Part shown: one piece after another, positions 16,058-50,213 of the stretch
Position numbering within the stretch: position 1 is the stretch's first letter
How the letters are laid out: each line of letters starts with the position of its first letter
Assembly: GCF_030518155.1 (NCBI RefSeq)
Contig: NZ_JAULRU010000430.1
Location: 1-60,987 of the forward strand
Reading direction: 5' to 3'
Length of the DNA: 60,987 nt
Source: Gilvimarinus gilvus
Lineage (GTDB): Bacteria > Pseudomonadota > Gammaproteobacteria > Pseudomonadales > Cellvibrionaceae
The notes under the pieces: generated by a model
Seen by the model: only the letters and a program-made list of their open reading frames with translations
The model's database searches: none
Told to the model about the DNA's origin: nothing
Translations under genes and position numbers: made by a program

Positions 16058-17107
16058 ATGCGATACCTAAGTCGAATACTAATTGCCCCTGTTGCGGGTA
16101 CAACACTATTGCTATTGAGTCATATGGGGTTTTCCCAATCGTGTCCGGCAAGCCATCCTTTTCAATGCGGGGGAGCCTGTTATGTAGACGCGGCCCAAGC
16201 ACAAGCAGGTGGGTGTAGTGAATCATCGACATCGAGTAGTAGCGGTCAATCATCGAGCAATTCTTCGGACAATAGCAATAATGCCGGTAACAATCTTACG
16301 TGTGCAAGCGATGAAAACCCTTCGCATGTTGTTTCGGGCCGTCGCCAGCAATTCACCCAGCCATGGTGTGATACCGTTTGTGTCACTTATGTGGGTAATG
16401 GCACCGGTTGCTTAAATGCCGCTGGTACTTTTGTCAGCAATGCCAGTATCTGCAGCGATCCGGCCAATGCTCGCGAGGCTATCATTGATATTGAGTACAA
16501 CCTGGGTATCGAGATTGACGATCAGTTTCAGGCAATGTCTGGTTATCAGGGCGCGCCGCCCTCTATTAATCCTACCATGACAGTGGCCGATGCAGAGACT
16601 TATTTTAGCGCTCTTATTGGCGAGCAGAAAGGCGTAGAGCTAGTGAGTCTGCTGAATACTAATGGTGACAATATAGTTACCCGTAACGAGGCCAGCCAGG
16701 CGAAAGGTTCTGATCCGCGCCAACTATTAAACACAGGATTTGGTTGCGGCTTGTCGACCGATGACATAATGGCCTACGTGGGGCTGTATGTCGGAGATGG
16801 AGCGATTGACAAATACGCTGGCGATTTGGATGATTCAGTCAAAGCCGCCATGCTTGAGTTTACACGCAGTTGGCAGCCAGGCGTAGACGCGCAGGCTTGC
16901 GAGTATCGCGGTGGCTGTAATGGCAATAACCCGGTAAGTTCGAGCTCAAGCAGTGTATCGTCGTCCAGCTCAAGCTCGGTCTCCAGCGCAAGTTCGAGCT
17001 CCCCGGGTAACCCTAACTGCCCAGCTTCACATCCACTGTGGTCGCAAAGCTGCGCACAGTGCTTTACCGATGCTGCTCAAGCGGCATCGGCAGGTTGTTC
17101 TCAATAG
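16058..17107 (+). CDS. Secreted polyserine-linked protein with two small Cys-rich modules
   Basis: A 349-residue exported protein with signal peptide about 1-27. Residues 29-53 (CPASHP...CGGACYVDAAQAQAGGC) and 321-347 (CPASHP...CAQCFTDAAQAASAGC) are two copies of a Cys-rich module. Each is joined to the centre by a polyserine linker (about 54-75 and 292-316) as in Cellvibrionaceae carbohydrate-active enzymes. The centre (80-285) has four to six cysteines and one EF-hand-like loop at about 200-211 (NTNGDNIVTRNE). I do not recognise the central domain. By layout the end modules may bind carbohydrate; this is inference. Confidence 0.85.
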   Translation: MRYLSRILIAPVAGTTLLLLSHMGFSQSCPASHPFQCGGACYVDAAQAQAGGCSESSTSSSSGQSSSNSSDNSNNAGNNLTCASDENPSHVVSGRRQQFTQPWCDTVCVTYVGNGTGCLNAAGTFVSNASICSDPANAREAIIDIEYNLGIEIDDQFQAMSGYQGAPPSINPTMTVADAETYFSALIGEQKGVELVSLLNTNGDNIVTRNEASQAKGSDPRQLLNTGFGCGLSTDDIMAYVGLYVGDGAIDKYAGDLDDSVKAAMLEFTRSWQPGVDAQACEYRGGCNGNNPVSSSSSSVSSSSSSSVSSASSSSPGNPNCPASHPLWSQSCAQCFTDAAQAASAGCSQ

Positions 17108-17119
17108 TAAGTAGGGCCT

Positions 17120-17146
17120 CTGCGACAGTTTCTCCAGCTGTCGCAG
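17120..17146 (+). other. Intergenic hairpin
   Basis: Perfect 9-bp stem CTGCGACAG / CTGTCGCAG with a 9-base loop between the secreted protein gene and the next gene. There is no T run, so it is more likely an RNA-processing or stability element than a terminator. Confidence 0.5.
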
Positions 17147-17166
17147 GGATTAATCGACGCTACGTT

Positions 17167-17778
17167 ATGAATTTAAAACCATCTCTAACTTTATTTTCCA
17201 TGTTTATTGTGCTGGGGTTCTCATGGTTGGTGTTTAATACATTGTTGAAAGTGACGCCCCCTAAGCAGCAAGAGATTTCTATTTCTCTCACTCCCATGGC
17301 TGAGGATTCCGTTTCCTCTGCTATTTCAAAGAGTCTTATACCAACGCCTGCAGTGGATGACGTTCTATCTTCACTTGTGACAAAGCCAGTTAAATCTTTA
17401 CCCCAAAACGCGAGCACCTCTATATCTTCAGAGGAGTTTGTCGAACGCAAAAGACGAGCAATTTGGCAGGACCATCACGGAAACTTCCGCTCGGAAGTTT
17501 ATATTGAAGACCGCTCGCAATGGCAGCAAATTATCTCTGATGGCCCTCTATTTTATCCCAATCAGGGGCAGCTGTTGGAATCTTTGCAAGGCTGCTCAGC
17601 CGCTGGATATTATGTCGACGGGCAAACGACTGTTGCTCTGATTGATAGGCATGGGGATATAGTTCGTGTTTTCTATTATCTTTGCTCCGTTGTTGAAACA
17701 ACAGGTGACTACATCTTTCTGGAAGTGCAGGCAGTTGATCATTTAATGGAGAGCGTGGAGGTTAATTACCTTGAGTGA
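17167..17778 (+). CDS. Hypothetical membrane-anchored protein
   Basis: A 203-residue protein with one N-terminal membrane segment or uncleaved signal (about 9-27, LFSMFIVLGFSWLVFNTLL), a Ser/Thr/Pro-rich spacer to about 95, and a C-terminal globular region containing two cysteines (QGCSAAGYYVDG and YYLCSVVE). The start is placed at the ATG at 17167 because the upstream extension overlaps the previous gene and lacks a signal. No family recognised. Its stop overlaps the TTG start of the following heme protein gene, so they are probably co-translated and related in role. Confidence 0.72.
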   Translation: MNLKPSLTLFSMFIVLGFSWLVFNTLLKVTPPKQQEISISLTPMAEDSVSSAISKSLIPTPAVDDVLSSLVTKPVKSLPQNASTSISSEEFVERKRRAIWQDHHGNFRSEVYIEDRSQWQQIISDGPLFYPNQGQLLESLQGCSAAGYYVDGQTTVALIDRHGDIVRVFYYLCSVVETTGDYIFLEVQAVDHLMESVEVNYLE

Positions 17779-19171
17779 TAATGCAAGAAACCGTGTCTCT
17801 TTGTTTACGATAAGCATCTTTTTTGTTCTGGTCGGTAGCCCGGTTGGCGCACTGACGTCTGATGATTTCGAGCAGCGGTTATTCCACTCAGGAGGCGTGG
17901 CCGGTAATTTTCGGCTTTGCCCCAAGAGTGCTTTCGATACTATCGTCCCTCTGAGCGATTCATCTGCTGGCGAGTCTATTACTGATATGACCATCGCTGG
18001 TGTTAACCGTTACATTCAAGAAAACAATGTTCGCTCTATTGATGAGTTGTTGACCCGGTTGCCTGTGCATTACCGTACTAATTTTTCGTTGGTCGAGCAT
18101 ACCCGTGCAACAGGACAGTCAAGTCTGGAGCGGCCCAGAATTATTCTATTTGGCTCAGACGGAATGTTGCTGATGAATATCGGTACGAAGCCCGATGACC
18201 CAACCTATCACAAGTTGGACATTGCGCAACTTCATAAAGAGACGGGGGCTTGGGAGTTCTCGGTGTTTGATTTTACTCAGCAAGAGCCTGTTCTTACTCG
18301 TAACGCCGAAAGTTGCAGAGAATGTCATGGTGGTAAGAATTCACGGCCAGTATGGGGGACAAACCTAGATTGGCCAGGGGTTTTTGGAGACAATATCGCC
18401 GAAGGTCCACAAGGTGAGGCGCTCGATGACCGCCATGCACGCGCTATGAACTCTATTATGGCTGGCGAAGGGGCCTCTGGCCGGTTCTCTTTTCTGCTCT
18501 GGCGCGATGAGCTTCTACAGCGCGGAGGAAAAAGACAAATTGCACACCATGATTTTGGCGCAGAGCTTCTGCTTTCCAATATCGCTATGGGCAGTGCCAC
18601 TGCCCGAGGGGCGTTTACCCGCTTAAAGAACCATCACAAATACGATACAGCGAAAAGCGCGCTGATATTGGCCTATTACTTAAGAAAAGGGAATGCATTT
18701 CTCTCGCATAACGAGCAAAAAAAGGCCGATAAATTCGCTCGTGAACTGGGCGCCAATGAATTTACCTTAGATGCTTTGCTAGAGGGGTTGGGTGTCGATC
18801 CTCATGAAGCGTTTTCACTGGCAACCCTGCACAGTCTTGAGCCGCCCCATACGAATTGGAGCCTGGGGCGGGCTGATCTTTATGATTTGTTAATGTTGCA
18901 GGTGTTTAATGACCTTCGCAATGAAAATGAAAATGTGGATCGACTGCTGAGTAATCGGCGTTCCGAGCTGGGAGTGCTGGACTGCCCGACGACCGCCCAC
19001 ACGATTGCGGACGTGATTGATTTTAAGATGGTACATTTATTTTATCTTACAGGTTATCAACGCTATCAAGTGAACCGTGTGTTTTATCCTCTCGACCTTG
19101 AAGACATATACGATCGTGTATTCTTGCCTGTGTCTGCAGCCATGATCGCTTTGAGCAAAAGAGCGTTATAG
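17771..19171 (+). CDS. Exported protein with one c-type heme motif
   Basis: A 466-residue protein with signal peptide about 1-27 and a single CxxCH site, C182-R-E-C185-H186, followed by GGKNSRPVWGTN. This should attach one heme c in the periplasm or outside. The rest, mostly helical, matches no family I can name. The TTG start overlaps the previous stop (TTGAGTGA) and has GGAGG 9-10 bases upstream; no ATG occurs until residue 132. Its position before the diheme GH26 fusion suggests a shared electron-transfer function, which is inference. Confidence 0.8.
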   Translation: MSDNARNRVSLFTISIFFVLVGSPVGALTSDDFEQRLFHSGGVAGNFRLCPKSAFDTIVPLSDSSAGESITDMTIAGVNRYIQENNVRSIDELLTRLPVHYRTNFSLVEHTRATGQSSLERPRIILFGSDGMLLMNIGTKPDDPTYHKLDIAQLHKETGAWEFSVFDFTQQEPVLTRNAESCRECHGGKNSRPVWGTNLDWPGVFGDNIAEGPQGEALDDRHARAMNSIMAGEGASGRFSFLLWRDELLQRGGKRQIAHHDFGAELLLSNIAMGSATARGAFTRLKNHHKYDTAKSALILAYYLRKGNAFLSHNEQKKADKFARELGANEFTLDALLEGLGVDPHEAFSLATLHSLEPPHTNWSLGRADLYDLLMLQVFNDLRNENENVDRLLSNRRSELGVLDCPTTAHTIADVIDFKMVHLFYLTGYQRYQVNRVFYPLDLEDIYDRVFLPVSAAMIALSKRAL

Positions 19172-19530
19172 CTGTATAACCCCTTGAAAATTCGATCTGT
19201 TTACGGGTGCCGCTAAGGAAGAATGATGAGACCGATGGATTACTTCCTAGTGTATAAGCCACAGTAACGCAGATATTGATTCAACATGTGCTTTGAGGCT
19301 CGACTTGTGTGTTTGCACTTAGTCTCTGACGACATGGGGGGGGCAGTCGGGGTGCGGCAGATTCAGGCACAAACTGTCAAAGTGGGACGATTTTCGATGA
19401 TTCACCAATAGCGGTTGTTAACGTTAACTTTCTAGATTACTATAAAATTCGATAGTTGAAGCTAGAGCAGAGCACGGAACTCAACAATAACGATAATTTT
19501 CCTGAGGTGATATCGACTACAGGTACCGTG
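19172..19530. other. Spacer upstream of the AraC-type regulator
   Basis: About 360 bp without a supported gene. It contains the 12-bp palindrome GTTAACGTTAAC at 19417-19428. An in-frame TTG at 19456 could extend the regulator by 25 residues, but it has no ribosome binding site. Confidence 0.45.
19417..19428. promoter_or_regulatory. Candidate LacI-type operator, copy 1
   Basis: GTTAACGTTAAC is a perfect 12-bp palindrome upstream of the AraC-type regulator. The same word occurs before the TonB receptor (30148) and the GH43 gene (37140), and a shorter relative lies before the GH26 fusion (20785). Confidence 0.6.
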
Positions 19531-20700
19531 ATGCAACAATTTTACGTTTGGTTCAATAAAGCTCAATTTAATGCCTATGACCTGATTTTGATCATGTTGA
19601 TGGTTCAATGCGCGGTATTTGGTTTCTTGATGCTGATCCGGCCCCCGCGCCCACTAAGCCAGCGACTTTTGTCTGTCTTTCTAATGTCGTTAGCTGTAGG
19701 CCAATTGGTCTTTCTTTTGACGTATAACCCCGTTTTGTTTAGCACCTTTCATCCTTTGTGGGGTGATCGAGGGTATGCACTCTGGGCATTGGTTTATAGC
19801 ACTCACGGTCCTATGCTGTATCACTATACGCGCGCTTTGACCTCAGAGTCTTACTCCTGGCGTTGGGCTTTTCTGTGGCCGCTCGCACCCGGCTTCGCAG
19901 TTATTGTGCTGGAACCCCTCGGCTGGCACTCGCTGGTAGAGCTGATGTTTTGGCGTGAGTTTGTTCTCGTGTGCGTTCTGGGGTTTGTTATTTCCGTTGG
20001 GTTTGCAATCGCCACTCTTTTTCATATCGAGCGTTATTCCGAACATCTCAAGAATCACTTCTGTACAGTTGAGCTTATGGAGTATGGCTGGCTAAGGCTT
20101 ATGGTGTGGGGATTTTTACTGGTCTGGGTGTTGGAGGTTTTACCACCGTTTTTCTACGCTTGGGCACCCTGGCCACTAATGGAAACGGTGGTCCATTTGC
20201 CGGGCGTACTGGAGTTGGCCTTAATCTATTTTATTGTGTTCGCGGGATTGTTTTACGCGCGTGCCACCCGCCAGATTCCTGTGACTGAGGAGGAAAAAGT
20301 GACAAGGCGTGATGACGCCTCTCAAGAGGAAAGTCAATCACATCAGTCCTATATAGCCAAGCGGATGACGGAGGAAAAATTGTATTGTCGGCCACGTCTG
20401 AATATTGAACGCTTGGCTGAAGAGCTGTCTTTGTCTCCGCGCCAATTATCTCAGATTATCAATCGTGAGCTCGGTAAAAACTTTTTCGAATTTATCAACG
20501 ACTATCGTTTGGAAGAAGTTAAGCAGCGGTTAAGAAGTGTGGAGTGGGCCGATTCTTCGATACAGGAGATCTATGAGTCAGTAGGTTTTCGTTCACGATC
20601 TTCTTTTTTTACATTGTTTAGAAAATACGTGGGTATGACACCGAGTCAGTACCGCGATGCAATTTTGCCTCAAGAGCCAGAACCGGAAAGTGGCACATAA
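19531..20700 (+). CDS. Membrane-integrated AraC-family transcriptional regulator
   Basis: Residues 1-245 contain about seven hydrophobic membrane segments. Residues 285-380 form an AraC double helix-turn-helix (NIERLAEELSLSPRQLSQIINRELGKNFFEFINDYRLEEV and IQEIYESVGFRSRSSFFTLFRKYVGMTPSQYR, each seen in pieces). Such proteins sense a periplasmic or membrane signal and bind DNA in the cytoplasm. The start at 19531 is chosen for its weak CAGG site and the following membrane segment. It is directly upstream of the GH26 fusion on the same strand and is a candidate activator of it. Confidence 0.88.
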   Translation: MQQFYVWFNKAQFNAYDLILIMLMVQCAVFGFLMLIRPPRPLSQRLLSVFLMSLAVGQLVFLLTYNPVLFSTFHPLWGDRGYALWALVYSTHGPMLYHYTRALTSESYSWRWAFLWPLAPGFAVIVLEPLGWHSLVELMFWREFVLVCVLGFVISVGFAIATLFHIERYSEHLKNHFCTVELMEYGWLRLMVWGFLLVWVLEVLPPFFYAWAPWPLMETVVHLPGVLELALIYFIVFAGLFYARATRQIPVTEEEKVTRRDDASQEESQSHQSYIAKRMTEEKLYCRPRLNIERLAEELSLSPRQLSQIINRELGKNFFEFINDYRLEEVKQRLRSVEWADSSIQEIYESVGFRSRSSFFTLFRKYVGMTPSQYRDAILPQEPEPESGT

Positions 20701-21059: not shown

Positions 21060-24000
21060 ATGAGTAGCTCTTGGAAAGACTTTCGCCGCCATAGTCTCAC
21101 GCTGGGTATTGCTCTCAGCGCCTCACAGGCGTTTGCGGTAAGCGGTACGCTTGTTCCGGACGATGGCGTTATGCTGTCGGTGGGGCAAGACATCGAAAGT
21201 ATCGGTGATTATGTGTCATCGGTAGGCACACAGCCTGCAGGCGTGACCAATTATGTTGGTATCACAAATCTGGACGGTTTGAACAACAGCGCAGACGCTG
21301 GCGCCGGGCGCAATAACGTCGCCGAGCTTGCCACCACCTACCCCGATCGCGCATTGGTGGTTGGAGTATCCATGAACGGTGTAATCGATCAGGTTGCAGC
21401 CGGCACTTACAACGCTAATATCGATACGCTGTTAAACACCCTAGGTGGTTATAACCGCCCCGTGTACTTGCGTTGGGCCTACGAGGTGGACGGCCCCTGG
21501 AACAACCACAACCCCGCCGCGGTTAAATCCACATTCGCTTACGTACACAACCGCATTGAGCAGCTGGGTTATGACGACCGCATCGCGCTTGTATGGCAAA
21601 CCGCCACCTACTGCCCAGTGCCTATTAACCCTGATGAGTGGTACCCCGGCGATGACGTAGTCGACTGGGTGGGTATCTCGTATTTTGCGCCTCAGGATTG
21701 TAACTGGGCTGAAGTGCGCAAGGTGGCAGACTTTGCCGTTGCTCACAATAAGCCACTGTTTATTAATGAATCCACTCCGCAGCGCTATAAAACCGGCGCG
21801 TTAACCTATTCCACCGACGCGGCTTTTGGCAATAACCAGGTCAACAAAACCGCCGACCAAGTGTGGAATGAGTGGTATCAGCCGTACTTTGATTTTATTG
21901 CGGAATACTCTAGCGGCAGTAAAGATGTTCTGCGCGCGATCACTTATATCAACGCTAACTGGGACGCCCAGCCACGCTGGAACCCTAACGACGGCGTCTA
22001 TGGCCCAGAGGGTTACTGGGGCGATAGCCGGGTTCAGGCCAACAGCACTATTTTAAACCGTTGGGAAAACACTACCGGCGGCACCGATTTTATTCGAGCT
22101 GGGGCCAATCTGTTCAGCAAGCTCAATTTTGGTGATCAGGGTTCGGTTGATCGGCAAAACCCTAGCGTCAACTTAGTGGCGCAAAATTCAGAAGTGGTGG
22201 CCGGCGAGAGCTTTACAGTTGACGTAAGCGCCAGCGATGCCGATGGTTCGGTAACCAGCGTCAGCTTGTATGTTACCGCGCCCAACAGCAGTGAGGTGCT
22301 GGTCGGGACCTCGCAAGGTGCGACGGCTACCTTTACCGTCAATACGTCAGTGGCAGGTAGTTACACCTTGCGCGCAGTCGCCACCGATAACGATGGCCGC
22401 ACTGACGACGCGATAAGCAATAAAAATGTGGTGACTGAAGACGGTGGCGAGCCCAACCCAGCGCCGAATGCTGAGTTTGGTATTCGCTATATCGACGACA
22501 CTACCTTACAAGTATTCCATCAGGATAACCCCGACTGGGAAGGTGGTTTCGCTTACTTATGCTTAGACGCTTACTGTTTGTCAGCGACCCGAGAAAATGG
22601 TTTATTTACCCGAAACTTTAGCGGGACGTTAGATCAAAGCTACGCTATTGAGTTTAAGGTTCAGGACAACGAAACCGGGCAGTACATGGTTCAGGATCAG
22701 GCGATCTTTACCAAAGGCAGTACCAATCCTGTGGACGACCCCAATGCCGCACCCGCGGTGTCCGCCAGCACGAATGCAGGCGTGGTGATCGAGGGCGGTG
22801 TTATTTCGGTGGCGGTGAGCGCCGATGACAGTGATGGCAACGTAGAATCTGTAACCTTGTACATGACTGCTCCCGGCGGTAGCGAGACATTGGTAGATCA
22901 GGTTTCTGGTAATATTCACACCTTTGACGTCGCCGTTAATACGGCAGGCAACTACCAGTTCCGTGCCGTGGCTGTGGACGATCAAGGCGCCACAGCAGAG
23001 GCCACCACCAGCAAAACCGTGGTGCAAGATAACAGCAGTAGTGGCGACCCCACCAGCCTGACACTGGAGGCCGAAGCCGCCACCGTGTTTGGCGGCGCGC
23101 GCTTATACCCGGATACAGCGGCCAGTGGTGGCGAGGGTGTGGCTTACATCAGCAGCAATGGCGCAGGCTTTCGCATTGAGAGCGCACCGCAGGCCGATAC
23201 CGTCAGCATTACCTACGCCTCAGAAGTATCAGGGCGTATCACGTTGCGGGTAAACGGTAGCGATACGGCTGTGCCTTTTGCCAGCACCGGCTCTTGGGTT
23301 GGTAGCTATAACACCGTTGATGTAGACGTTCAGGTGCCTGAAGGCGCCAGTGTAGAAGTGCGCTACGAAAATGGCGATGCGGCTATGAATGTTGATTTGC
23401 TGGACTTTACTCTGCAAGGTGGCAGTACAGACCCTGTCGAGAATCAGGCACCTTCGGTCACCTTAAGCCAACCGGCCGCTGCAACCCTAGGGGACACAGT
23501 TAACCTGACGGCAAGTGCTTCAGACAGCGACGGTAATGTGGTCAGTGTTTCCCTTTACGCGACAGCTCCGGGTATGTCTGAGACCTTGGTGAGCACAAAA
23601 AACAATGCACCCTACGGTTTTAGCGTTACCGCCGATCAAGTGGGTACGTGGCAATTTCGTGTCGAGGCCACGGATAACGACGGCGCTGTGGAGTCTGATA
23701 CCGTGCAGGTTCAGGTGAGCGATCAACCAGCCCCACAAGGCACAGTGGGTATCACCTCACCGGCCAATGGTGCGAGCTTTAGCGAGGGTGAGAGCGTTAC
23801 ACTGGGCTTTGCGGTAAACAACTGGCCGCTGGCGCAAAACGATGGTCATGTGCATTACTTTGTTAATGGTGAAGATCAGGGGCCGCTATACAGCAGCGCC
23901 GACGTGGTTATAGATGGGTTGGCTGTGGGCACACATACCCTCGCGGTTGAACTGGCCGAAGCCGATCATACCCTGACCGGTGTGCGCGATGAGGTGAGTG

Positions 24001-26078
24001 TACAAGTGGCGGCCGCTGATGATGGCAATCCCGGAGATGACGGCGGCAACGGCGATGAGCCGTTTGGCGTTAGCGGCAGCACCCTGTGGTTTGCCGTGCA
24101 GCCAGGTTGGCCCGACTCCGGCACTTACTATTTGTGTCGTGATCTGGAAGCCGACTGTTACACCGCGAGCCAAAACGGCGATCGTTACGAGCACACCTTC
24201 GCAAATTTGCCTGGCGGTAGCTTTACCGCACAGTTAAAGGTGCCTGGCATGGGCGCTGATCAATTCCCCCGTTATGACTACACTACCAATGGCGCCGACG
24301 GCGGCAATGATGGCGGTAACGACGGCGGCAACGGTGATCCGGGTGATAATATCGACCCAGACTCACCCTTTGCCCACCTCGACTGGACAAGCAATTCACT
24401 CACTGACGGTGAAGTGGGACCTCCACCGCGGGCAAACCCCGTGTATGCGCTGGCCACACCTGAAAATGGCCATGCACCTACCAGCCACGGCTTTGCCTTT
24501 GATGTGGACGGGAACCAGTTAACATGGCGCTGGGGGCCTTACATTATCAAGGGAGCCGGTGATTCGGGGCTTGAGATGCACTGCTCGGACGATGGCGACT
24601 TAACCTTTAAGAAAGTAGCGGTAAGCGGTGGTACAGCGACCATCCCCTGTAGTGGTGATTACAATTACTTCTTCCGCTATTTGCATCCTCAGGCGCTAAA
24701 CAATAATCCGGCTACGCAGTGGATTTGGACAGGTTTGTTTACCACCGAAGGTGCGCGGGTTAACCCCCATAACTACGAGCCGTTTGTGGATGGCTCCTCC
24801 AACTGGATGCGTTTCCGTCACCCGATTACCCAAGACGGAACCACCGCAGCCGTACTGGATGCGCACCACAATAATGATCGTCTGCGTAACCTTGACCGTT
24901 ACACCATCTGGACCGAAGACAGCCCTGGTGATGTGCACTTAGGTTTTGGTATCAACGGCAGCATTTTGCGTAACGAATCGATGCGCAACACCGCCGGTGG
25001 GCCAAACGGCCAGCAGTTTTTTGCCCTGACTCAAAACCCCGGTTTTGACTCGGCTTACAGCTACGGTCAGGTGATCAGCTTTGAAGTAACCGCTATTGCC
25101 GGTAACACCGGTGCACAAACCTACAACGACTTCTCCCACTATGTAGTGGGCTGTGGTTGGTGTGGTAAGTACGGTGATCCGCGATTAAACCCAGCCGGTA
25201 AAGCCGGTACCAGCCAGGTGTTCTCTGACTCGGGTGGTTACATCGATCTGGAGCACAACGCGATCTTCACTCAGCCCATGGTGACCTTGCACAAAGAAGA
25301 CATGGTGGATGATTTTATCCTGGGGCATCACCTGTTCCACGGTGTGGATCCCAACAAGTTAGGCTCCAGTGAGTTTAACGATCCGGATGTACAAATTGGT
25401 CGTGACACCTGTGGTAACTGTCACTTCCGTGATGGTCGTGGTACCGAGCCTGTCAACGTGCCAGGTAAAGGTATGCGCTTGCCGCCACCGGTATACGGCG
25501 TAAAACTGCTCGAAGCCATTGAAGGCCGCGAAGCTGGTTTTGCCTGGGATGGCTCGGCACCTACTGTGGCCGATCAGGTTAAATCGGCACTGAGGGTGGA
25601 TCATGGTGTGGAGCCTGACGAGATGCCACCTCGTTTGCTGGAGCTGTTAACCACCTATGTTGAGGTGTTAACCGTACCGGCGCGCGACCCGGGCACTTAC
25701 AGTGATCCGGCGGTGAGCCAGGGTGAAGTCGCGTTTGATAATATCGGTTGTGCCAGCTGTCACACGCCGAAGCAAAAGACTCGCGCCGATGCGCCGACGC
25801 ACCTGCGTAACCTGGCCATTCGTCCCTATACCGACATGAAACTTTGGGATCTGGGCGAAGGTGAGTTCCGCACAGCGCCGCTGTGGGGTATTGGTCAGAA
25901 CATTCACTTGTTAGAGCGCAATGGCCACGAGATGCTGTATATGCACGACGGTGCGTCTGGCAGCGTAGCCGATGCTATTAGCCGTCACGGCGGTGATGCA
26001 GCAGACTCGCGCGCGGCTTACAACAGCCTCAGTGCAAGTGAGCAGCAGGCCGTACAGGCATTTGTAGAAACTCTGTAA
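21060..26078 (+). CDS. Secreted GH26 (beta-1,3-xylanase-like) / CBM / diheme DHOR oxidoreductase fusion
   Basis: A 1672-residue exported protein with signal peptide 1-26. Residues 28-340 are a GH26 domain of the beta-1,3-xylanase type (VPDDGVMLSVGQD, RWAYEVDGPWN, WYPGDDVVDWVGISYFAPQDCNW, WGDSRVQAN), with acid/base E142 and nucleophile E237. Ig-like units follow at about 366-458, 560-656, 796-888 and 893-984. Two paralogous Cys-paired modules lie at 468-552 and 1002-1076, and a CBM35/CBM6-like module at 664-788. After a Gly/Asp linker (1076-1100) comes a poorly recognised region to about 1440. The end is a DHOR-type cytochrome with hemes at C1451-GN-CH and C1564-AS-CH, plus the RTAPLWGIG and HDGASGSVADAISRHGG blocks. 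It has its own terminator at 26109. Confidence 0.9.
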   Translation: MSSSWKDFRRHSLTLGIALSASQAFAVSGTLVPDDGVMLSVGQDIESIGDYVSSVGTQPAGVTNYVGITNLDGLNNSADAGAGRNNVAELATTYPDRALVVGVSMNGVIDQVAAGTYNANIDTLLNTLGGYNRPVYLRWAYEVDGPWNNHNPAAVKSTFAYVHNRIEQLGYDDRIALVWQTATYCPVPINPDEWYPGDDVVDWVGISYFAPQDCNWAEVRKVADFAVAHNKPLFINESTPQRYKTGALTYSTDAAFGNNQVNKTADQVWNEWYQPYFDFIAEYSSGSKDVLRAITYINANWDAQPRWNPNDGVYGPEGYWGDSRVQANSTILNRWENTTGGTDFIRAGANLFSKLNFGDQGSVDRQNPSVNLVAQNSEVVAGESFTVDVSASDADGSVTSVSLYVTAPNSSEVLVGTSQGATATFTVNTSVAGSYTLRAVATDNDGRTDDAISNKNVVTEDGGEPNPAPNAEFGIRYIDDTTLQVFHQDNPDWEGGFAYLCLDAYCLSATRENGLFTRNFSGTLDQSYAIEFKVQDNETGQYMVQDQAIFTKGSTNPVDDPNAAPAVSASTNAGVVIEGGVISVAVSADDSDGNVESVTLYMTAPGGSETLVDQVSGNIHTFDVAVNTAGNYQFRAVAVDDQGATAEATTSKTVVQDNSSSGDPTSLTLEAEAATVFGGARLYPDTAASGGEGVAYISSNGAGFRIESAPQADTVSITYASEVSGRITLRVNGSDTAVPFASTGSWVGSYNTVDVDVQVPEGASVEVRYENGDAAMNVDLLDFTLQGGSTDPVENQAPSVTLSQPAAATLGDTVNLTASASDSDGNVVSVSLYATAPGMSETLVSTKNNAPYGFSVTADQVGTWQFRVEATDNDGAVESDTVQVQVSDQPAPQGTVGITSPANGASFSEGESVTLGFAVNNWPLAQNDGHVHYFVNGEDQGPLYSSADVVIDGLAVGTHTLAVELAEADHTLTGVRDEVSVQVAAADDGNPGDDGGNGDEPFGVSGSTLWFAVQPGWPDSGTYYLCRDLEADCYTASQNGDRYEHTFANLPGGSFTAQLKVPGMGADQFPRYDYTTNGADGGNDGGNDGGNGDPGDNIDPDSPFAHLDWTSNSLTDGEVGPPPRANPVYALATPENGHAPTSHGFAFDVDGNQLTWRWGPYIIKGAGDSGLEMHCSDDGDLTFKKVAVSGGTATIPCSGDYNYFFRYLHPQALNNNPATQWIWTGLFTTEGARVNPHNYEPFVDGSSNWMRFRHPITQDGTTAAVLDAHHNNDRLRNLDRYTIWTEDSPGDVHLGFGINGSILRNESMRNTAGGPNGQQFFALTQNPGFDSAYSYGQVISFEVTAIAGNTGAQTYNDFSHYVVGCGWCGKYGDPRLNPAGKAGTSQVFSDSGGYIDLEHNAIFTQPMVTLHKEDMVDDFILGHHLFHGVDPNKLGSSEFNDPDVQIGRDTCGNCHFRDGRGTEPVNVPGKGMRLPPPVYGVKLLEAIEGREAGFAWDGSAPTVADQVKSALRVDHGVEPDEMPPRLLELLTTYVEVLTVPARDPGTYSDPAVSQGEVAFDNIGCASCHTPKQKTRADAPTHLRNLAIRPYTDMKLWDLGEGEFRTAPLWGIGQNIHLLERNGHEMLYMHDGASGSVADAISRHGGDAADSRAAYNSLSASEQQAVQAFVETL

Positions 26079-26501: not shown

Positions 26502-28331
26502 TTAGCGTGCAGAGGAGTTTTCGATAAACGCTTTGGCTTTCTGATATCGCTCGCTCAAAGGTAGTAGCGGGTAGCTATGGCGGCCAGGTGTTAAGTGAAC
26601 AAATGGGCCGGGGGCGTAGTAATCGGTTGGACGAGGACTTCCAGCGAACCCTTCCGGTACAGAGGGGGTAATAGTTAACGACAGGTTAATCATATCCGCT
26701 TTTACCGGTGTTACATTGAGCCCCTCTGCGCTCTGCGGAAGAGTCAGCTGCAAGCTCAGGCCCGTTTCGTCCTCGTGAAGCGCCCACTCGACTTCGCCCG
26801 AGAGCGTTGTTGCGTCAGCTTCTTGCGGTAGCGGTTTCGCACCGGCAAGGTAGGCGTTGTGACGATAGTGAAAATCGGTCGCTTCTATCTCTGGATCCAG
26901 CCCTTTGCCAATAAACAGATTGTTTAACCAATAGCTGTCCGCTAGGGTGGGGCGGCCCTGCCAGTCTTGATTTCCCCAAGCGTGCTCGATATCCAAAAAC
27001 AAATTGTGCAGCATTACATCCCCGCGAGATGAGTAGGCCGAGACCTGCCCCCCGACAATGACGTTGTTGGCGAAAACGTTAGGGTAGCCGTCCCAATTGG
27101 CTTCAAATAGAATCGATGAGGCCTCTGCGCCGATAATTACGTTGCTCTCGATGCGCCAATCTTTGTTTTTAAAGTCGTTCCAGATGCCGTGGGCTGCTCC
27201 GCGCTCGGGGTCCAAGGTATAGATATTACGGATCAGGTTGTTTTTGATTACCAGGTTCGATGTATTATGGTGTTTTATCCCGGCTGTTTCCCAGCCCCCG
27301 AACTCTTCGCGGTAGTTTATGTCCTCTATATGGTTGCCCGCTATCAGCGAGTGTTTATTCCAGGTTTCGCCGGCAATGCCGCCCTGGCCGCAGCGAAGTA
27401 ACACATTATCTATGACTTGATGATAACCGCTGTTCGCTTTGTCCGCCGCGCCGTTAGGGTTGCCAATAGAAATACATACTGCCTTGCTGTAGAGCACTGT
27501 GTTGTTCTTGATCACCCAATGACTGCCGCCATTGGGGCCAATGGCACCGGGCTGGAAAACCGTGGGGGGCGCCCAGTGCGTGGCGATATTTTCAAAGGAA
27601 AACCCTTCAACGGTAATATGACTTAGACCCGGCTTACTGGGGAAGAAAGCAAAGGGGCGACTGGTAACCTCTACCGAAGCCTGGCTGGGATCCAGGTCGG
27701 CTAAGTTGGCCCATAAAATGGTGTTGCCGTTGTCTTCGCGCACGAACCAGCTCATAGGATGGTCGGCTAGATCTTCCAAGGTTTCGCGCTCGGTTAACCC
27801 TTTACCGTCCGCGATAATATCGCCGCGATGTGTCCAGCGGCCGTATTTTAACCAGCCCCAGCCGTCACCTTCTTCATCGGCCTCGACATATTCCGGATGG
27901 CGAGTGAGTTGAGAGAAGGGGTTGAAATCGCCAAAAAAATCGGGATCGAGTGAGACTCGGTAAAGGCCGTTGTTCTGTCTTTGCCAGCCGCTAACTCGCT
28001 CAGATCCGAGAATGCGAACTTGGCCATCGCTGGCGGCTTTGTAAACAATGGGGCCTTGCTCGACGTTGCCGCCGCGGGGTGGGTTGACCCATTCTCTATA
28101 GGTTCCAGCATGCACCAGCACAGTATCTCCTGGTTGCGCTTTTTGCGCCGCGGCATTAATGGAATTTAGAGGTGCGTTGGCGGTACCGCTGGCACCATTC
28201 GAGCCTTGGGGCGAGACATGGTAGGTGCGTGGGGTTGGCTGGGGACCGACTTGGCAGCTGGAAAGAAAAAGTGGAAGGGCGAGAGCCGTGATGAATAGAT
28301 AAATACGAGTGCTAATAGGTCGTTTTGTCAC
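26502..28331 (-). CDS. GH120 beta-xylosidase, lipoprotein
   Basis: Right-handed beta-helix glycosidase of 609 residues. The N-terminal half follows the GH120 pattern known from Thermoanaerobacterium XylC: TYHVSPQGSNGASG, GDTVLVHAGTYREWV, GSERVSGWQ, FFGDFNPF, HWAPPTVFQPGAIGPNGG. Candidate nucleophile D386 (GIWNDF) and acid/base E410 (ILFEANWDG) align with the XylC pair. The N-terminus is a lipoprotein signal with lipobox LSSC (C26), so it is probably membrane anchored. The GTG at 28331 is chosen because AGGA lies 7 bases upstream and the signal begins there. It should release xylose from xylo-oligosaccharides. Confidence 0.85.
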   Translation of the reverse strand: MTKRPISTRIYLFITALALPLFLSSCQVGPQPTPRTYHVSPQGSNGASGTANAPLNSINAAAQKAQPGDTVLVHAGTYREWVNPPRGGNVEQGPIVYKAASDGQVRILGSERVSGWQRQNNGLYRVSLDPDFFGDFNPFSQLTRHPEYVEADEEGDGWGWLKYGRWTHRGDIIADGKGLTERETLEDLADHPMSWFVREDNGNTILWANLADLDPSQASVEVTSRPFAFFPSKPGLSHITVEGFSFENIATHWAPPTVFQPGAIGPNGGSHWVIKNNTVLYSKAVCISIGNPNGAADKANSGYHQVIDNVLLRCGQGGIAGETWNKHSLIAGNHIEDINYREEFGGWETAGIKHHNTSNLVIKNNLIRNIYTLDPERGAAHGIWNDFKNKDWRIESNVIIGAEASSILFEANWDGYPNVFANNVIVGGQVSAYSSRGDVMLHNLFLDIEHAWGNQDWQGRPTLADSYWLNNLFIGKGLDPEIEATDFHYRHNAYLAGAKPLPQEADATTLSGEVEWALHEDETGLSLQLTLPQSAEGLNVTPVKADMINLSLTITPSVPEGFAGSPRPTDYYAPGPFVHLTPGRHSYPLLPLSERYQKAKAFIENSSAR

Positions 28332-28999
28332 AATCAATCCTGCCTTAATTCGTATCGGGTTGTGGTTAAAATAATGGAGTGAATATTGATGCCACAGTAT
28401 GCCACTCAGCAATATCGATAGTTTTGTATATAGAGGGTAAGTGGGATCTTTTGGGGTTCGTTATTACGACAGGTAGAGTTCGATTTTTGTTATCGTGACG
28501 CGGAGTGCCGCTGTAGGGCTCGCAGGCTGTTGAAAAACCCCATGCATGCTCAGCGTTGCCTGAAGCGTGCAGATGTCTTGTCTCGACGGACAGGGTGGCT
28601 CCCTTTGCTAGAGGCAAGGCGCGGCAGGTGTGCGCTTCAGGTCACGCCCTGTGGGGCTTTCAGGCTGGCCCGCACTCGTCGTTACCCTTTTTCGATGTGT
28701 GGACACACACGGTCAAAAGGCCGCCTAGATTATGAGCCAGCCTGAGTACGCTTGGGGTTTTTCAACAGCCTGCTAAGACTGAGTACCTATTGTTACAACG
28801 AAAGAACATATAGACATCAACATGCTGGACAACTAAGTGATTCGCTCGTGTTTTTGGTGGCGTTTTATTCGTCATCATCGAATACCATAGTTATGGTCTT
28901 GCATGGTAAATTGTTCGCGTTTGTGATACTAAGAAACCCGCTCGAGATCTGCTTGGAGCGCGGAACTTGGCTTGTTGCAGCAGACAATGTGGATATTAG
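28332..28999. other. Divergent intergenic region containing a MITE
   Basis: Lies between GH120 (leftward) and the LacI regulator (rightward). Positions 28522-28773 are MITE copy 3; the remainder should hold both promoters. Short frames here overlap the MITE and are not credible genes. I see no GTTAACGTTAAC or xyl-box word. Confidence 0.45.
28522..28773. mobile_element. Complete MITE (copy 3)
   Basis: A 252-bp element with the same termini as copy 2 (GCAGGCTGTTGAAAAACCCC at the left, GGGTTTTTCAACAGCCTGC at the right) and clear internal similarity. The right flank is TA but the left flank is TC, so the target duplication is lost or mutated. It has small internal deletions relative to the 265-bp copy 2. 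Confidence 0.88.
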
Positions 29000-30046
29000 A
29001 TGAATAAAAAGCAACGCTCTGGTAAATCGACCAGGGTCACTATGAAAGATGTCGCCGAGCGAGCGGGCGTCTCTTTGATGACAGTTTCAAGAGTCCTAAA
29101 TAACGATCGGGTGGCGATAGCGACCCACGACAAGGTGATGGAATCCGTTCGCGCTTTGAATTATCGTCTCGATGCCTCGGCTCGCAGCTTATCGAGTGCT
29201 CAGTCTTATTTAATGGGCTTTTTTTACGATAACTCTTTAGGGGGTTACATCAGCCAGTACCTAATTGGCGTGCTCCAGCGTTGTAACGAGTTGGGCTATC
29301 ATCTAGTGATAGAGTCCTGTTCTTACGGCGAGAGTGATGTGGACTCCATAGTTGAAGGCTTGACCGGGCGTTACATGCTTGATGGTGTGATCCTCCCTCC
29401 GCCCCTTTGCGAATACGCTCCTCTTCTGGATGCACTTGATAAGGCGGGGGTTCGTTATGTACGGGTAGGTCCGGGTTTGGAGTTGGAGCGCTCATCGTAT
29501 GTCTCCATTGATGATTACCGGGCCACCTTCGAGATGACTGAACGCTTAATTGCCCAAGGGCATAGGGCGATAGGGTTTATTAAAGGTGATATACATCAGG
29601 GAGTTGCGGTCACTCGTTTCGAAGGGTTTCGGGATGCGATGGACAAGCATGAGCTGCCCGTAGATGCAGCGCTGGTCGCGGAAGGCAGCTTCTCTTTCGC
29701 TAGTGGCATGGAGGCTTGCGAGCAAATACTGGGAGCCGGTAAACCCGTAAGCGCCATATTCGCCAGTAATGACGATATGGCCAGCGCGGTAATCGCCACT
29801 GCTCATCGCCGTGGTATTCGGGTGCCGGAAGAGTTGGCAGTGGCTGGTTTTGATGATACCAATATCGCCACCTCAATCTACCCTCAGCTTACGACAGTGC
29901 GTCAACCTATCGAAGAATTGTCCGGCCAATCGGTTAATCTGTTGATTGAGGTGATCAGGGCCGACAGTCTTCTAGACATTAAGCTGCAGAAAAAAGAGAT
30001 TTTGGCCCACTCCATTATCGAGCGAGATTCAACGCTCATCAGCTGA
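29000..30046 (+). CDS. LacI-family transcriptional regulator
   Basis: A 348-residue DNA-binding protein. Helix-turn-helix at about 14-40 (MKDVAERAGVSLMTVSRVLNND), followed by a periplasmic-binding-type effector domain (MGFFYDNSLGGYISQYLIGVLQ, AIFASNDDMASAV, VAGFDDTNIATSIYPQLTTVRQP). Placed between the GH120 xylosidase and the TonB receptor, it is the best local candidate to bind the GTTAACGTTAAC palindromes and perhaps the xyl-box-like site at 9440. Its ribosome binding site is weak. Confidence 0.93.
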   Translation: MNKKQRSGKSTRVTMKDVAERAGVSLMTVSRVLNNDRVAIATHDKVMESVRALNYRLDASARSLSSAQSYLMGFFYDNSLGGYISQYLIGVLQRCNELGYHLVIESCSYGESDVDSIVEGLTGRYMLDGVILPPPLCEYAPLLDALDKAGVRYVRVGPGLELERSSYVSIDDYRATFEMTERLIAQGHRAIGFIKGDIHQGVAVTRFEGFRDAMDKHELPVDAALVAEGSFSFASGMEACEQILGAGKPVSAIFASNDDMASAVIATAHRRGIRVPEELAVAGFDDTNIATSIYPQLTTVRQPIEELSGQSVNLLIEVIRADSLLDIKLQKKEILAHSIIERDSTLIS

Positions 30047-30236: not shown

Positions 30237-33224
30237 ATGAGTCAACTAACATTAAAAAAACGTCTTTTATCGTCATCCATTGCTTTGGTAATGGGGGGCG
30301 CGGCCGCAAATACTGTAGCGCAAAGCGCGGAAGCCGATATCGGCATGTTGGAGGAAGTAATCGTCACCGGTATCCGTGCCTCTCTGGACCGGGCTATGGA
30401 TATCAAGCGCGACTCCCAAGGGGTGGTCGATGCCATTTCCGCGGAGGATATAGGTGATTTTCCTGATACTAACTTAGCAGAGTCACTGCAGCGTGTGACT
30501 GGCGTGTCCATCGATCGTCAAAATAACGAAGGTTCCCGTGTGACCGTGCGTGGTTTTGGCCCTGATTACAACATGATTACCCTCAATGGGCGCCAAATGC
30601 CTACGGCTAATCTAGGCGAAACTTCTACCAACAACTCCCGTTCTTTTGATTTTTCGCAGCTGGCGGCTGAAAGCGTCAGTGGCGTGGAGATTTATAAAAC
30701 GGGTAAGGCAACTTTAACCACTGGTGGTATCGGTTCGACTATTAATATCCAAACCACCCGCCCGCTGGAAAACGCCGGGGTGAATGCGAGTTTTGGGGTA
30801 AAGGCCGTGGCCGACAGCACCAACCGTATTGGCGATGATGTAACCCCCGAGATTTCCGGTATTTACAGCAACACCTTTGCTGATGACACCATTGGTGTAG
30901 CAGTATCGGCGAGCTATCAACAACGCGACTCAGCACAGCTTTCTGGGAACGTATCATCCGGTTGGAACAGCTTGCGTGTGGCTGAGGGTGACCCGCTGAT
31001 CGATGCCTACCCTGTAGCGGCGGGTGATTTAATGTCTACCCCGCAAAACTACATGTATCGCATTGATGATTACTCTCGCGAACGTACTAATGCCCAGGCG
31101 ACTTTACAGTGGCAGCCTGTTGACAGTATTACCGCTACCGCCGATTACACTTATACTGAGCAGTCTGTAGACCGGGAGCGCCAAGAGCTTTCGGCATGGT
31201 TTGGCGGTGGTTTTAGCTCGCAAGGCGACAGCGATGTGTATGCTGGCAGCGATGTGGTAACTCCTTCTTACCTGGTGGCTACCGATTGCTGCGATGTGGG
31301 TTTCGGTGTTGGCAGCTGGGGAACCGATAGCCGCATGGACTCTTTAGGTATTAACCTTGAGTGGCAAGCGACGGATAACCTTACGTTGGCGTTGGATGCT
31401 CACTCCTCTGAAGCTGAAGCCAAACCCCAAGATTACCGCGGTAGTGACAACATTGTGACCGCTGCGGCCTTTATCCGGACTAGAACTACCGTAGATTTCC
31501 GTCAGGACCTACCGCTAATGAGTGTAGAACTGGATGATGGGGCGTTGACGGCAGACGATATTATATCTACTGGTACCAGCCATCGTAACTCTTACCAGAA
31601 AACCGAAATCGATCAGGTCAAACTAGACGGCACCTATGAGTTCGACGAGTCCGTCGTTAAAAGCATAGACTTTGGCTTGGCAGCCACTAAAATTGAAAAC
31701 CGTACCGCGTTTAGCCTAAACCAAGGCGGTAACTGGGGTGGCGTGGGTTACACCAATATTGGTGGTGACTGGAACTCCGCTGCCGGTGATGGTGATAACA
31801 ATTATGATGACGCAGCTTTCGAGTTTGCAAGCTTGTCTGGTGAGTTTGGAGAGCTTTCATCTGGTGGTGTTCATGGTCAATATGTCGACGTAAACTACGA
31901 TCAGTTTTCTGGAGATCTTGCACGTTTCTATGAGCAATACCCTGACGGCCAAGGTGCTGGCGGAAATGTTTTTACTCACTGTGACCCGGGCAGTTTGTGC
32001 ATCAACCCTGAATACGCCGTAGACAACCGTATGAAAGAAGAGCAATCTTCTGCCTATGTTCAGGTGAGCTTAGGGTGGGATACCGCTGGAATGGCAACCG
32101 ATTTGGCTATCGGTTTGCGCTACGAAGAAACTGAAGTGACGTCTAACTCTCTTCTGCCGAATTACTTCAATGGTCAATGGAAAACAGCTAACGAACTATT
32201 GCTGGAAGCCGATGGTGGAATTTTCCGTGAGGGGACAGGCTCCTACGATAACTTGCTGCCCAATATTGATTTTGCCCTTCATCCCATAGACGATGTTGTA
32301 GTGCGGGCCTCGTTTAGCCAGACTATCGCGCGCCCTAACTACGGCAATTTGCAAGGTACAGCGATTCCGGATAGCCCTCAGGCGCGTACGTTCGATAACA
32401 GTACAGCGGGCTCTGGTAATCCGGACCTGGATCCGTTTGAGTCCACCAACTTCGATTTCTCTGGTGAATGGTATTACGGCGAAGGCAGCTACGTTTCTTT
32501 GGGCTACTACCAAAAAGATGTAGAGAATTTTATCGGTACCAGTATTGAAAACGAAGTGCTGTTTCCCTCGGTAGTTAATCCCGCAACTGGTGTGCACTAT
32601 GATGAAGCTGCTGCACAGGCTTCTGTTGATAATTTTGGTCAGGATGTTCGCGATTATTATGTGGCTCAGGGCTGGATTGACGGAACCAGTGGTGAAATTT
32701 TGGGTGATCGCAGTAGCTACGATCCGTTGATGTATACCATCCGTGTTCCGGTAAACGAAAAAGAAGCATCTATTGACGGCTTTGAATTTGCCTTGCAACA
32801 TATGTTTGGCGAGTCTGGATTTGGGGGCATAGTTAACTTCACCACTGTCGATGGCGATATTGGCTACGATAATGATGTGATTAATGAAAACCAATTTGCA
32901 TTATTGGGTTTGAGTGATTCGGCCAATGTGGTTGCGTTTTATGATAACTATGGCCTTCAGGCCCGAATTGCTTATAACTGGCGCGATGAGTTCTTAAGTG
33001 GTACGGCTCAAGGCAATGGTCAGCAAGAACCAGTGTATACCGAAGCCTATGGTCAGGTAGATATTTCTGTCAGCTACGACTTTACAGACAACCTGTCGGT
33101 CGTTTTTGAAGGGCTGAATGTAACTGAAGAAGATATTCGTGTTCACGGTCGTACTGACAATATGCTGGTATTCTACGGTGAGCAGGGCGCGCGTTACGCG
33201 TTAGGTGCTCGCTACTCGTTCTAG
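30237..33224 (+). CDS. TonB-dependent receptor, Caulobacter type
   Basis: Outer-membrane importer of 995 residues for carbohydrate oligomers. Signal peptide about 1-29, TonB-box region EEVIVTGIR at about 40-48, plug domain (ISAEDIGDFPDTNLAESLQRVTGVSI, VRGFGPDYNMITLNGRQMPTA) and a long beta-barrel ending in aromatic F (GARYALGARYSF). This long receptor class is common in oligosaccharide loci of Caulobacter, Xanthomonas and Cellvibrionaceae. Neighbouring xylosidases suggest xylo-oligosaccharides as ligand. An operator-like palindrome precedes it and a strong terminator follows. Confidence 0.94.
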   Translation: MSQLTLKKRLLSSSIALVMGGAAANTVAQSAEADIGMLEEVIVTGIRASLDRAMDIKRDSQGVVDAISAEDIGDFPDTNLAESLQRVTGVSIDRQNNEGSRVTVRGFGPDYNMITLNGRQMPTANLGETSTNNSRSFDFSQLAAESVSGVEIYKTGKATLTTGGIGSTINIQTTRPLENAGVNASFGVKAVADSTNRIGDDVTPEISGIYSNTFADDTIGVAVSASYQQRDSAQLSGNVSSGWNSLRVAEGDPLIDAYPVAAGDLMSTPQNYMYRIDDYSRERTNAQATLQWQPVDSITATADYTYTEQSVDRERQELSAWFGGGFSSQGDSDVYAGSDVVTPSYLVATDCCDVGFGVGSWGTDSRMDSLGINLEWQATDNLTLALDAHSSEAEAKPQDYRGSDNIVTAAAFIRTRTTVDFRQDLPLMSVELDDGALTADDIISTGTSHRNSYQKTEIDQVKLDGTYEFDESVVKSIDFGLAATKIENRTAFSLNQGGNWGGVGYTNIGGDWNSAAGDGDNNYDDAAFEFASLSGEFGELSSGGVHGQYVDVNYDQFSGDLARFYEQYPDGQGAGGNVFTHCDPGSLCINPEYAVDNRMKEEQSSAYVQVSLGWDTAGMATDLAIGLRYEETEVTSNSLLPNYFNGQWKTANELLLEADGGIFREGTGSYDNLLPNIDFALHPIDDVVVRASFSQTIARPNYGNLQGTAIPDSPQARTFDNSTAGSGNPDLDPFESTNFDFSGEWYYGEGSYVSLGYYQKDVENFIGTSIENEVLFPSVVNPATGVHYDEAAAQASVDNFGQDVRDYYVAQGWIDGTSGEILGDRSSYDPLMYTIRVPVNEKEASIDGFEFALQHMFGESGFGGIVNFTTVDGDIGYDNDVINENQFALLGLSDSANVVAFYDNYGLQARIAYNWRDEFLSGTAQGNGQQEPVYTEAYGQVDISVSYDFTDNLSVVFEGLNVTEEDIRVHGRTDNMLVFYGEQGARYALGARYSF

Positions 33225-34797: not shown

Positions 34798-34827
34798 TGG
34801 TCTTTTGAGCGTAAATTGGAGGGGATT

Positions 34828-50189: not shown

Positions 50190-50213
50190 GAATGAATTCT
50201 TGGTGTGCTTAAG

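Follow-up and report, generated by a model that had tools for sequence, protein, structure and literature searches.

A GH26 1,3-xylanase-type protein of Gilvimarinus gilvus ends in a conserved, putatively di-heme DHOR module that recurs in related bacteria

The DNA analyzed here (the window) comprises positions 1 to 60,987 of contig NZ_JAULRU010000430.1 of Gilvimarinus gilvus (assembly GCF_030518155.1). A gene on its forward strand (21060-26078) encodes a single polypeptide of 1672 residues, in which a glycoside hydrolase family 26 (GH26) beta-1,3-xylanase domain, the carbohydrate-binding module (CBM) CBM31, a CBM6-like module, Big-type domains and a C-terminal DHOR domain are joined. The protein is the ortholog of Xyn65, a published enzyme of Gilvimarinus xylanilyticus. 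Within a Gilvimarinus locus devoted to beta-1,3-xylan, a seaweed polymer, it is very probably the principal 1,3-xylanase that this marine bacterium secretes. The best joint explanation of its architecture, to which we give about an even chance, is that a di-heme enzyme of the peroxidase/oxygenase type is tethered to the substrate by a protein that cuts 1,3-xylan. Its parts are the following.

21060-26078, forward strand: GH26-CBM31-CBM6-like-Big-DHOR protein, ortholog of Xyn65 (frame, Pfam, orthologs; PMC9638140)
21060-21140, forward: signal-peptide-like N-terminus, about residues 1-27 (read from the sequence; SignalP 5.0 for the ortholog, PMC9638140)
21141-22136, forward: GH26 beta-1,3-xylanase domain, residues 28-359, catalytic E142 and E237 (phmmer to 2ddx, Glu alignment)
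22161-22376, forward: Big_7 Ig-like domain, residues 368-439 (Pfam)
22455-22724, forward: CBM31, residues 466-555 (PF11606, E 4.4e-39)
23064-23426, forward: CBM6-like module, about residues 669-789 (PF03422, E 2.2e-5, under the Pfam cut-off)
23442-23711, forward: Ig-like domain, residues 795-884 (Big_9 / K319L-like_PKD)
23742-23948, forward: Big_7 Ig-like domain, residues 895-963 (E 4.9e-6)
24390-25301, forward: middle region, residues 1111-1414 (304 residues), aligned in 19 compact-DHOR proteins
25302-26075, forward: compact DHOR di-heme domain, residues 1415-1672 (PF06537 E 1.1e-20, CCP_MauG E 1.6e-6, both with these residues scanned as a separate piece)

An earlier note, made from the letters of the window, had described one uninterrupted 1672-residue frame with a GH26 domain at its start and a DHOR domain at its end, and this description held. 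The frame begins with ATG and has no internal stop, and its counterparts in G. chinensis and G. xylanilyticus are 93 and 92% identical, respectively, over residues 1-1672; because it is intact in these two further species, an assembly or sequencing error hiding a stop is very unlikely. Pfam, phmmer and the sequence itself likewise bore out the domains, their order and the presence of a signal-like start on a single chain.

Residues 28-359 matched the beta-1,3-xylanase XYL4 (2ddx) with a phmmer E value of 3.9e-133, AlXyn26A being a far weaker match of the window protein (E 1.9e-24), and the Pfam model Glyco_hydro_26 (PF02156) did not match the protein at E <= 1. The two glutamates that the earlier note had picked out, E142 and E237, are kept in the alignment in 8/8 proteins carrying both GH26 and DHOR, and also in a second GH26 protein of the window. 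CBM31 scored well above its Pfam cut-off (133 bits against 25), while the CBM6 model PF03422 stayed below its own (25.2 bits against 28.9, with residues 665-792 scanned alone); in the ortholog the same region is called CBM6 (PMC9638140). Three stretches of the protein matched Big_7 in Pfam, and a second CBM31, suspected at residues 990-1100, was unsupported (BLAST E 0.49, no Pfam match). GH26, the catalytic Glu pair and CBM31 are common to XYL4, other GH26-CBM31 1,3-xylanases and the window protein, whereas the GH26-CBM31 1,3-xylanases in Table 3 of PMC9638140 are without a heme module, Xyn65 excepted.

The fusion type itself is already known through Xyn65 of G. xylanilyticus HB14 (WP_253968372.1), reported in 2022 as GH26-CBM31-CBM6-Big-DHOR (PMC9638140), which refutes the claim of the earlier note that no GH26-DHOR fusion had been described. 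Domain order is identical in the two proteins, the HB14 gene (locus L005) is 92% identical over the length of the window protein, and the sizes agree (178.8 kDa computed for the precursor and 175.7 kDa minus the first 27 residues, against a published 176.6 kDa), the HB14 gene being taken as that of Xyn65 on architecture and size. Over the last 562 residues the closest records in the genome collection were those of G. chinensis DSM 19667 (94%) and G. xylanilyticus HB14 (93%). According to PMC9638140, Xyn65 is secreted, and on 1,3-xylan it contributed 82.3% of the secretome spectra that belong to 1,3-xylanases. Recombinant Xyn65 from E. coli (about 180 kDa) hydrolyzed 1,3-xylan alone among four xylans. 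Of three papers retrieved by the name of the enzyme or of the species, this one describes the enzyme, and the other two mention the species a single time without Xyn65. The authors of PMC9638140 state that DHOR had previously been unfound in glycoside hydrolases and offer two hypotheses for it, a new activity or a mere role in binding or stability. What the present analysis adds to that paper is the invariance of the heme sites, the recurrence of GH26-DHOR proteins, a GH16/CBM56-DHOR class, two co-occurring genes and a search for lytic polysaccharide monooxygenases (LPMOs) of the LPMO_10 family.

The residues on which a heme function of the C-terminal module would depend are these.

25410-25424, forward: heme c site 1, CGNCH, C1451-H1455, predicted open catalytic heme (24/24 modules; peroxidase H71 has no His counterpart)
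25545-25547, forward: W1496, aligned with Trp94 of the Pseudomonas aeruginosa peroxidase (24/24; alignment to 1eb7)
25749-25763, forward: heme c site 2, CASCH, C1564-H1568 (24/24 modules)
25986-25988, forward: H1643, aligned with Met275 of the same peroxidase, predicted second axial ligand of heme 2 (24/24; alignment to 1eb7)

The two CxxCH sites and the DHOR C-terminus had been named by the earlier note, and both were confirmed. In the full-length scan PF06537 matched residues 1511-1672 with E 3.6e-18 and 65.8 bits against a cut-off of 22, at profile positions 327-499 only. Two or more CxxCH motifs in the last 562 residues arose in 0 of 20,000 shuffles, and CcmH, of heme c maturation, is present in the genome. 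Two CxxCH, a Trp, an HDG and a C-terminal His motif are shared with the DHOR / DUF1111 / EfeB-type di-heme proteins (PF06537); the inter-heme spacing is shorter, 113 residues in the window protein against 221-251 in 21/23 further DHOR proteins and 135 in the other two. For the middle region that precedes the domain, no convincing relative was found in Pfam or PDB.

The alignment comprised 24 modules, the window plus 23 of 31 matches; left out were six matches that repeat genes already included, L052, which is nearly the same as L053 but incomplete, and the GH16-type L039. All 24 share both CxxCH motifs, W1496, D1514, Y1533, W1609, H1629 and H1643, and 22 of them Q1506. A regular-expression count of His 14 residues after HDG gave 18/24, as it can catch an earlier HDG, and some rows hold an additional HDG inside the middle region; the aligned column is 24/24. 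The alignment of the middle region in 19 proteins omits L050 (genome G019) and four divergent rows. Since the heme sites and key residues are invariant, the domain does not appear to have decayed. The reading in which DHOR has no redox function and serves only in xylan binding or protein stabilization, one of the two ideas of the Xyn65 authors, would suit the finding that recombinant Xyn65 from E. coli is active as a xylanase, with no heme measurement reported in the available part of PMC9638140. Against it, none of the 24 modules, which come from several genera, has lost a heme site or any of the predicted ligands (H1455, H1568 and H1643), and we consider this reading very improbable.

A profile of 24 DHOR cores (the window, 22 from other loci and one canonical DHOR, with L050 omitted) found seven PDB sequences at E <= 0.01. 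Peroxidases were matched with whole-sequence E values of 1.2e-5 (1iqc), 2.2e-4 (3o5c) and 0.002 (1eb7), with 2c1u and 1nml also found; the whole-sequence value for the hydrazine synthase gamma subunit 5c2v is 2.7e-8, and the match of 9l08, a linked cytochrome c555 trimer, is confined to the surroundings of the second CxxCH. Bacterial di-heme cytochrome c peroxidases have a Trp between the hemes, a nearby Gln, an axial Met on the C-terminal heme and a distal His71. In the alignment to 1eb7, W1496 falls on Trp94, which we take to lie between the hemes, Q1506 on Gln104, and H1643 on Met275, presumably the axial ligand of the C-terminal heme; no His stands at the position of His71. The window module thus resembles these peroxidases in the inter-heme Trp and nearby Gln, and differs from them in lacking the axial Met, replaced by His, and the distal His.

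From this alignment the N-terminal heme is predicted to be open and the C-terminal heme bis-His, as in RoxA. In that enzyme, O2 is bound at an N-terminal heme ligated by H195, the C-terminal heme is bis-His (H394/H641) and a Trp lies between the two (PMC6311187 and PMC4496055); the modeled FadCcp oxygenases PA2077/PA2078 have a bis-His C-terminal heme and an N-terminal heme for which one protein ligand is listed (PMC4496055). The rubber oxygenases RoxA/RoxB and the oleate oxygenases FadCcp are extracytoplasmic di-heme enzymes whose heme ligation resembles that predicted here, although their lengths differ and their substrates are rubber or fatty acids. None of them was among the 58 PDB sequences found at E <= 5.

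Several observations weigh against assigning the module to a peroxidase/oxygenase type with a role on polysaccharide. Single aligned stretches are weak (1iqc 0.27, 3o5c 0.18, 1eb7 0.061). Opposite Glu114 of 1eb7, which we take to be the acid residue of bacterial peroxidases, there is no acid, D1514 being two residues off. His at the Met275 place is found in 23/23 further DHOR proteins and in one canonical DHOR, so that this His and the missing distal His, common to other DHORs, would not be specific for polysaccharide chemistry. M1593, present in 20/24 modules, could ligate heme 2 instead of H1643. Structure predictions were poor, with a mean pLDDT of 36.8 for the C-terminal 562 residues and 38.8 for the 258-residue DHOR core (seven sequences each), and we found no such protein for which heme content or redox activity has been measured.

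With these points counted, a substrate-tethered di-heme enzyme remains the explanation that we prefer. GH26 would cut the 1,3-xylan chain, as judged from the activity of Xyn65, while CBM31 and the CBM6-like module, by their families, would hold the protein on the polymer. The C-terminal 562 residues would form a di-heme c-type redox enzyme of the bacterial cytochrome c peroxidase/MauG superfamily, in which the N-terminal heme (H1455), having no distal His, is predicted to be open to H2O2 or O2 and the C-terminal heme to be bis-His (H1568/H1643), with W1496 between the two. H2O2 or O2 would then be consumed at the surface of the 1,3-xylan fiber and the polymer, or something bound to it, oxidized, with heme 2 giving electrons to, or taking them from, a second secreted protein, possibly the product of a nearby gene, g17771. 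Of the three roles that the earlier note had suggested, the use of peroxide would agree with a peroxidase-like sequence. There is no support for oxidation of the sugar ends set free, since Pfam revealed no flavin, pyrroloquinoline quinone or copper domain in the 1672-residue chain; the third, electron delivery to a lytic oxidase, is taken up below.

Peroxide use could also be purely protective. The module would then remove H2O2, of algal origin or from the cell's own redox chemistry, near the substrate with an extracellular or outer-membrane donor, leaving the polymer untouched. Pfam labels DHOR a putative peroxidase and the similarity to bacterial peroxidases points the same way, but a scavenger needs neither anchoring on 1,3-xylan by CBMs nor joining to GH26/CBM31 and to GH16/CBM56 in separate lineages, and no donor is known. 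We regard this explanation as possible but doubtful.

A bolder form of the preferred explanation is that DHOR modules are a heme-based counterpart of LPMOs for beta-1,3-linked glycans, that is, open-heme, RoxA-like oxygenases or peroxygenases that loosen fibers oxidatively and are brought to 1,3-xylan by GH26/CBM31 and to 1,3-glucan by GH16/CBM56. Natural 1,3-xylan consists of microfibrils of triple helices (PMC13351767). 1,3-Glucans form triple helices too; it is on this account that such a role was considered, and we hold it to be unlikely.

LPMOs themselves were searched for through one family, LPMO_10 (AA10), which had no match in the genome of G. gilvus (852 contigs, estimated completeness 100%). 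The search works, because 11/13 other genomes tested were matched; the two without a match, G058 and G063, both carry the compact module, and among the nine other compact-module genomes seven have LPMO_10. An AA10 LPMO is therefore a common but not required partner of the module. These results bear on the suggestion of the earlier note that the module delivers electrons to a lytic oxidase, as has been proposed for CBM-linked cytochromes such as Cbp2D. In its favor, the CjX183 domain of Cbp2D reduces LPMOs (PMC8981238), and LPMO_10 is present in most of the genomes tested. It is disfavored by the absence of LPMO_10 matches from the own genome, G063 and G058, and by the resemblance of the module to catalytic di-heme enzymes rather than to a small electron carrier, and we judge it quite improbable. 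Cbp2D and Cbp2E of Cellvibrio japonicus are, like the window protein, CBM-linked proteins with a cytochrome part and a role in polysaccharide breakdown; for Cbp2D the available part of PMC8981238 names CBM, FN3, X158, X183, X132 and DUF1587 domains, and neither GH nor DHOR.

Distribution was surveyed in 144 genomes of the same family and in a class-wide draw of 369. Residues 1111-1672 had some match in 105/144 genomes, mostly to the DHOR part only among the matches listed, and a match extending across the middle region, which marks the compact module, in ten (G000, G019, G028, G029, G044, G048, G058, G063, G081 and G094). In the class-wide draw the own genome again had the middle region, and two others gave weak matches to it (L061, L062); the L061 match, in what we take to be a penicillin-binding-type protein, reads as chance. 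Viral contigs scanned for the module gave no relative. The earlier note had proposed looking for other proteins with both GH26 and DHOR, and at least eight such proteins are now at hand.

Three Gilvimarinus species: one fusion protein each, that of the window included
G028: L051:5912-10543
G058 (Marinibactrum halimedae): L047:11014-15324, L054:12832-16587 and L056:1451-5398
G006: L057:719-4270

This count excludes frame C65 of G058 (1100 residues, weak GH26 match). In L056 and L057 the GH26 call rests on 28-29% identity (5.8e-19 and 4.4e-28) and aligned Glu pairs, Pfam GH26 being unreported for them at 1e-3, as for the window protein. The eight GH26-linked DHORs occupy three separate parts of the tree, on which the label of GH26 or no GH26 changes five times, four of these changes being forced by well-supported branches; G019, scored as no GH26, is cut by a contig end, so at least one change is possibly false. 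Other members have CBM31 without a GH26 match (for instance L044, L042, L007 and L049). GH26 matches occur in 19/144 genomes and CBM31 in 15/144, and all ten compact-module genomes have both, partly by construction, given the fusion.

A paralog class of the compact module carries Lipoprotein_15 repeats, with CBM31 in 4/7 scanned; in G. xylanilyticus one such paralog lies directly 3' of the fusion gene. The paralogs are as follows.

L041:3934-7572
L053:3259-7029
L055:5937-9233
L043:1543-5133
L054:2158-5688
L046:3284-6985
L045:4754-8353

DHOR is also joined to domains of another kind. One further DHOR protein, and no more, was found in the own genome (L039:9311-14533, contig C332, 1740 residues); it combines a GH16-type domain, CBM35/CBM6, CBM56 and DHOR, and its GH16 resembles endo-1,3-beta-glucanases (4crq, 2.1e-29). 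The same GH16-CBM6/35-CBM56-DHOR set is found on plasmid pPBSW1 of Pseudoalteromonas sp. Bsw20308 (WP_007375536.1; L059:2452-6831). Among 22 DHOR frames, taken from L039 and 20 stretches picked by size and genus and not at random, ten have GH16, four CBM56 without GH16, one CBM31, and seven no searched domain; one of these seven, L093, has regions similar to glucanase/chitosanase modules (4zy9, 6.9e-21). Literature searches on GH16/CBM56 with heme, or on DHOR with glycoside hydrolases, gave no description of the GH16-DHOR class, and among the best ten of 318 matches DHOR was named in PMC9638140 alone, as far as the available parts go. DHOR is thus no longer an oddity of one enzyme, as it was with the published Xyn65: a di-heme module on 1,3-xylanases, 1,3-glucanase-type GH16 proteins and CBM-only proteins is a recurring design, seen within a single bacterial family and also on a Pseudoalteromonas plasmid. 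It involves separate DHOR lineages and two co-occurring genes of no known family, one of them encoding a CxxCH protein, and raises the question of a bacterial heme chemistry directed at beta-1,3-glycan fibers.

The co-occurring genes are g16058 and g17771, of a cassette at 16058-19171 in the locus around the fusion gene, which is laid out as follows.

16058-17107, forward: g16058, Cys-rich, signal-like start, EF-hand-like stretch (by eye), no Pfam match
17038-17778, forward: g17038, hydrophobic segment and small domain, no Pfam match, uncertain start
17771-19171, forward: g17771, 466 residues, signal-like N-terminus, one CxxCH (C182-H186), kept in 13/13 aligned
19456-20700, forward: AraC-type regulator
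26502-28412, reverse: GH120-type protein (PF21258, E 2e-10)
29000-30046, forward: LacI-type regulator
30237-33224, forward: TonB-dependent receptor
37486-39090, forward: GH43 with a beta-xylosidase-type C-terminal domain
42476-43606, forward: second GH26 1,3-xylanase-like protein (33% identity to the GH26 domain, E 7.9e-25)

No confident family was found for any of the three cassette products; g17771 gave a weak Cytochrome_P460 match (E 0.005). g17771 and g16058 each occur in 15/144 genomes (g16058 weakly in G006 and G014, partially in G110), and both in 10/10 compact-module genomes. For g17771 the hypergeometric P is 4e-12 when kinship is ignored and 1.4e-4 by genus (4/4 against 5/32), and in the class-wide draw it was found in one of 369 genomes, its own. 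In the three Gilvimarinus species and G028, both have homologs no more than about 8 kb from the fusion gene. Such an association would suit a pure electron relay, linking the polymer-bound enzyme, the g17771 protein and the cell, with a module that has no chemistry of its own. The pair is found without the compact module, however, in G072, G122 and partly G110, and g17771 alone in G096 and G103; in G063 and G094 the genes share a contig with the module but stand more than 120 kb from it, and four drafts (G019, G029, G058 and G081) have them on different contigs. Co-occurrence is, moreover, no proof of contact, and we assign the relay little probability.

In L051:1176-3563 of G028 the g16058 domain is fused to a GH26-CBM31 xylanase. 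The idea that g16058 is an LPMO-like protein was discarded, as no His follows the apparent signal peptide by eye.

Elsewhere in the locus, we take GH120 to be a beta-xylosidase family; the second GH26 protein had no Pfam match at 0.01, and PhyH, MFS sugar transporter and GFO/IDH genes are also present. Gene order is largely kept in G. chinensis and G. xylanilyticus, with the differences that the cassette genes stand 3' of the fusion gene there and 5' in the window, and that in G. xylanilyticus the identity drops to 30% for the halogenase-like gene and to 43% for the TonB gene. The GH26-GH43-MFS content resembles that of an experimentally studied 1,3-xylan locus (PMC12125979), the available part of which makes no mention of cytochrome, oxidoreductase, heme, DHOR or LPMO.

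Adjoining the TonB receptor within the xylan locus is a tryptophan-halogenase-like protein (33325-34797), homologs of which are also found near the DHOR gene in L039. Between it and the GH43 gene lies an FG-GAP repeat protein (34816-36375) with a signal-like N-terminus and one CxxCH; as a locus partner it was set aside, since the stretches compared from the two sister loci contain nothing that matches it at E 1e-20. Farther along the window, at 50205-54589, is a neighboring locus with polysaccharide lyases of two types, chondroitinase B and heparinase/alginate lyase; from the families concerned, its substrate is presumably of the alginate type.

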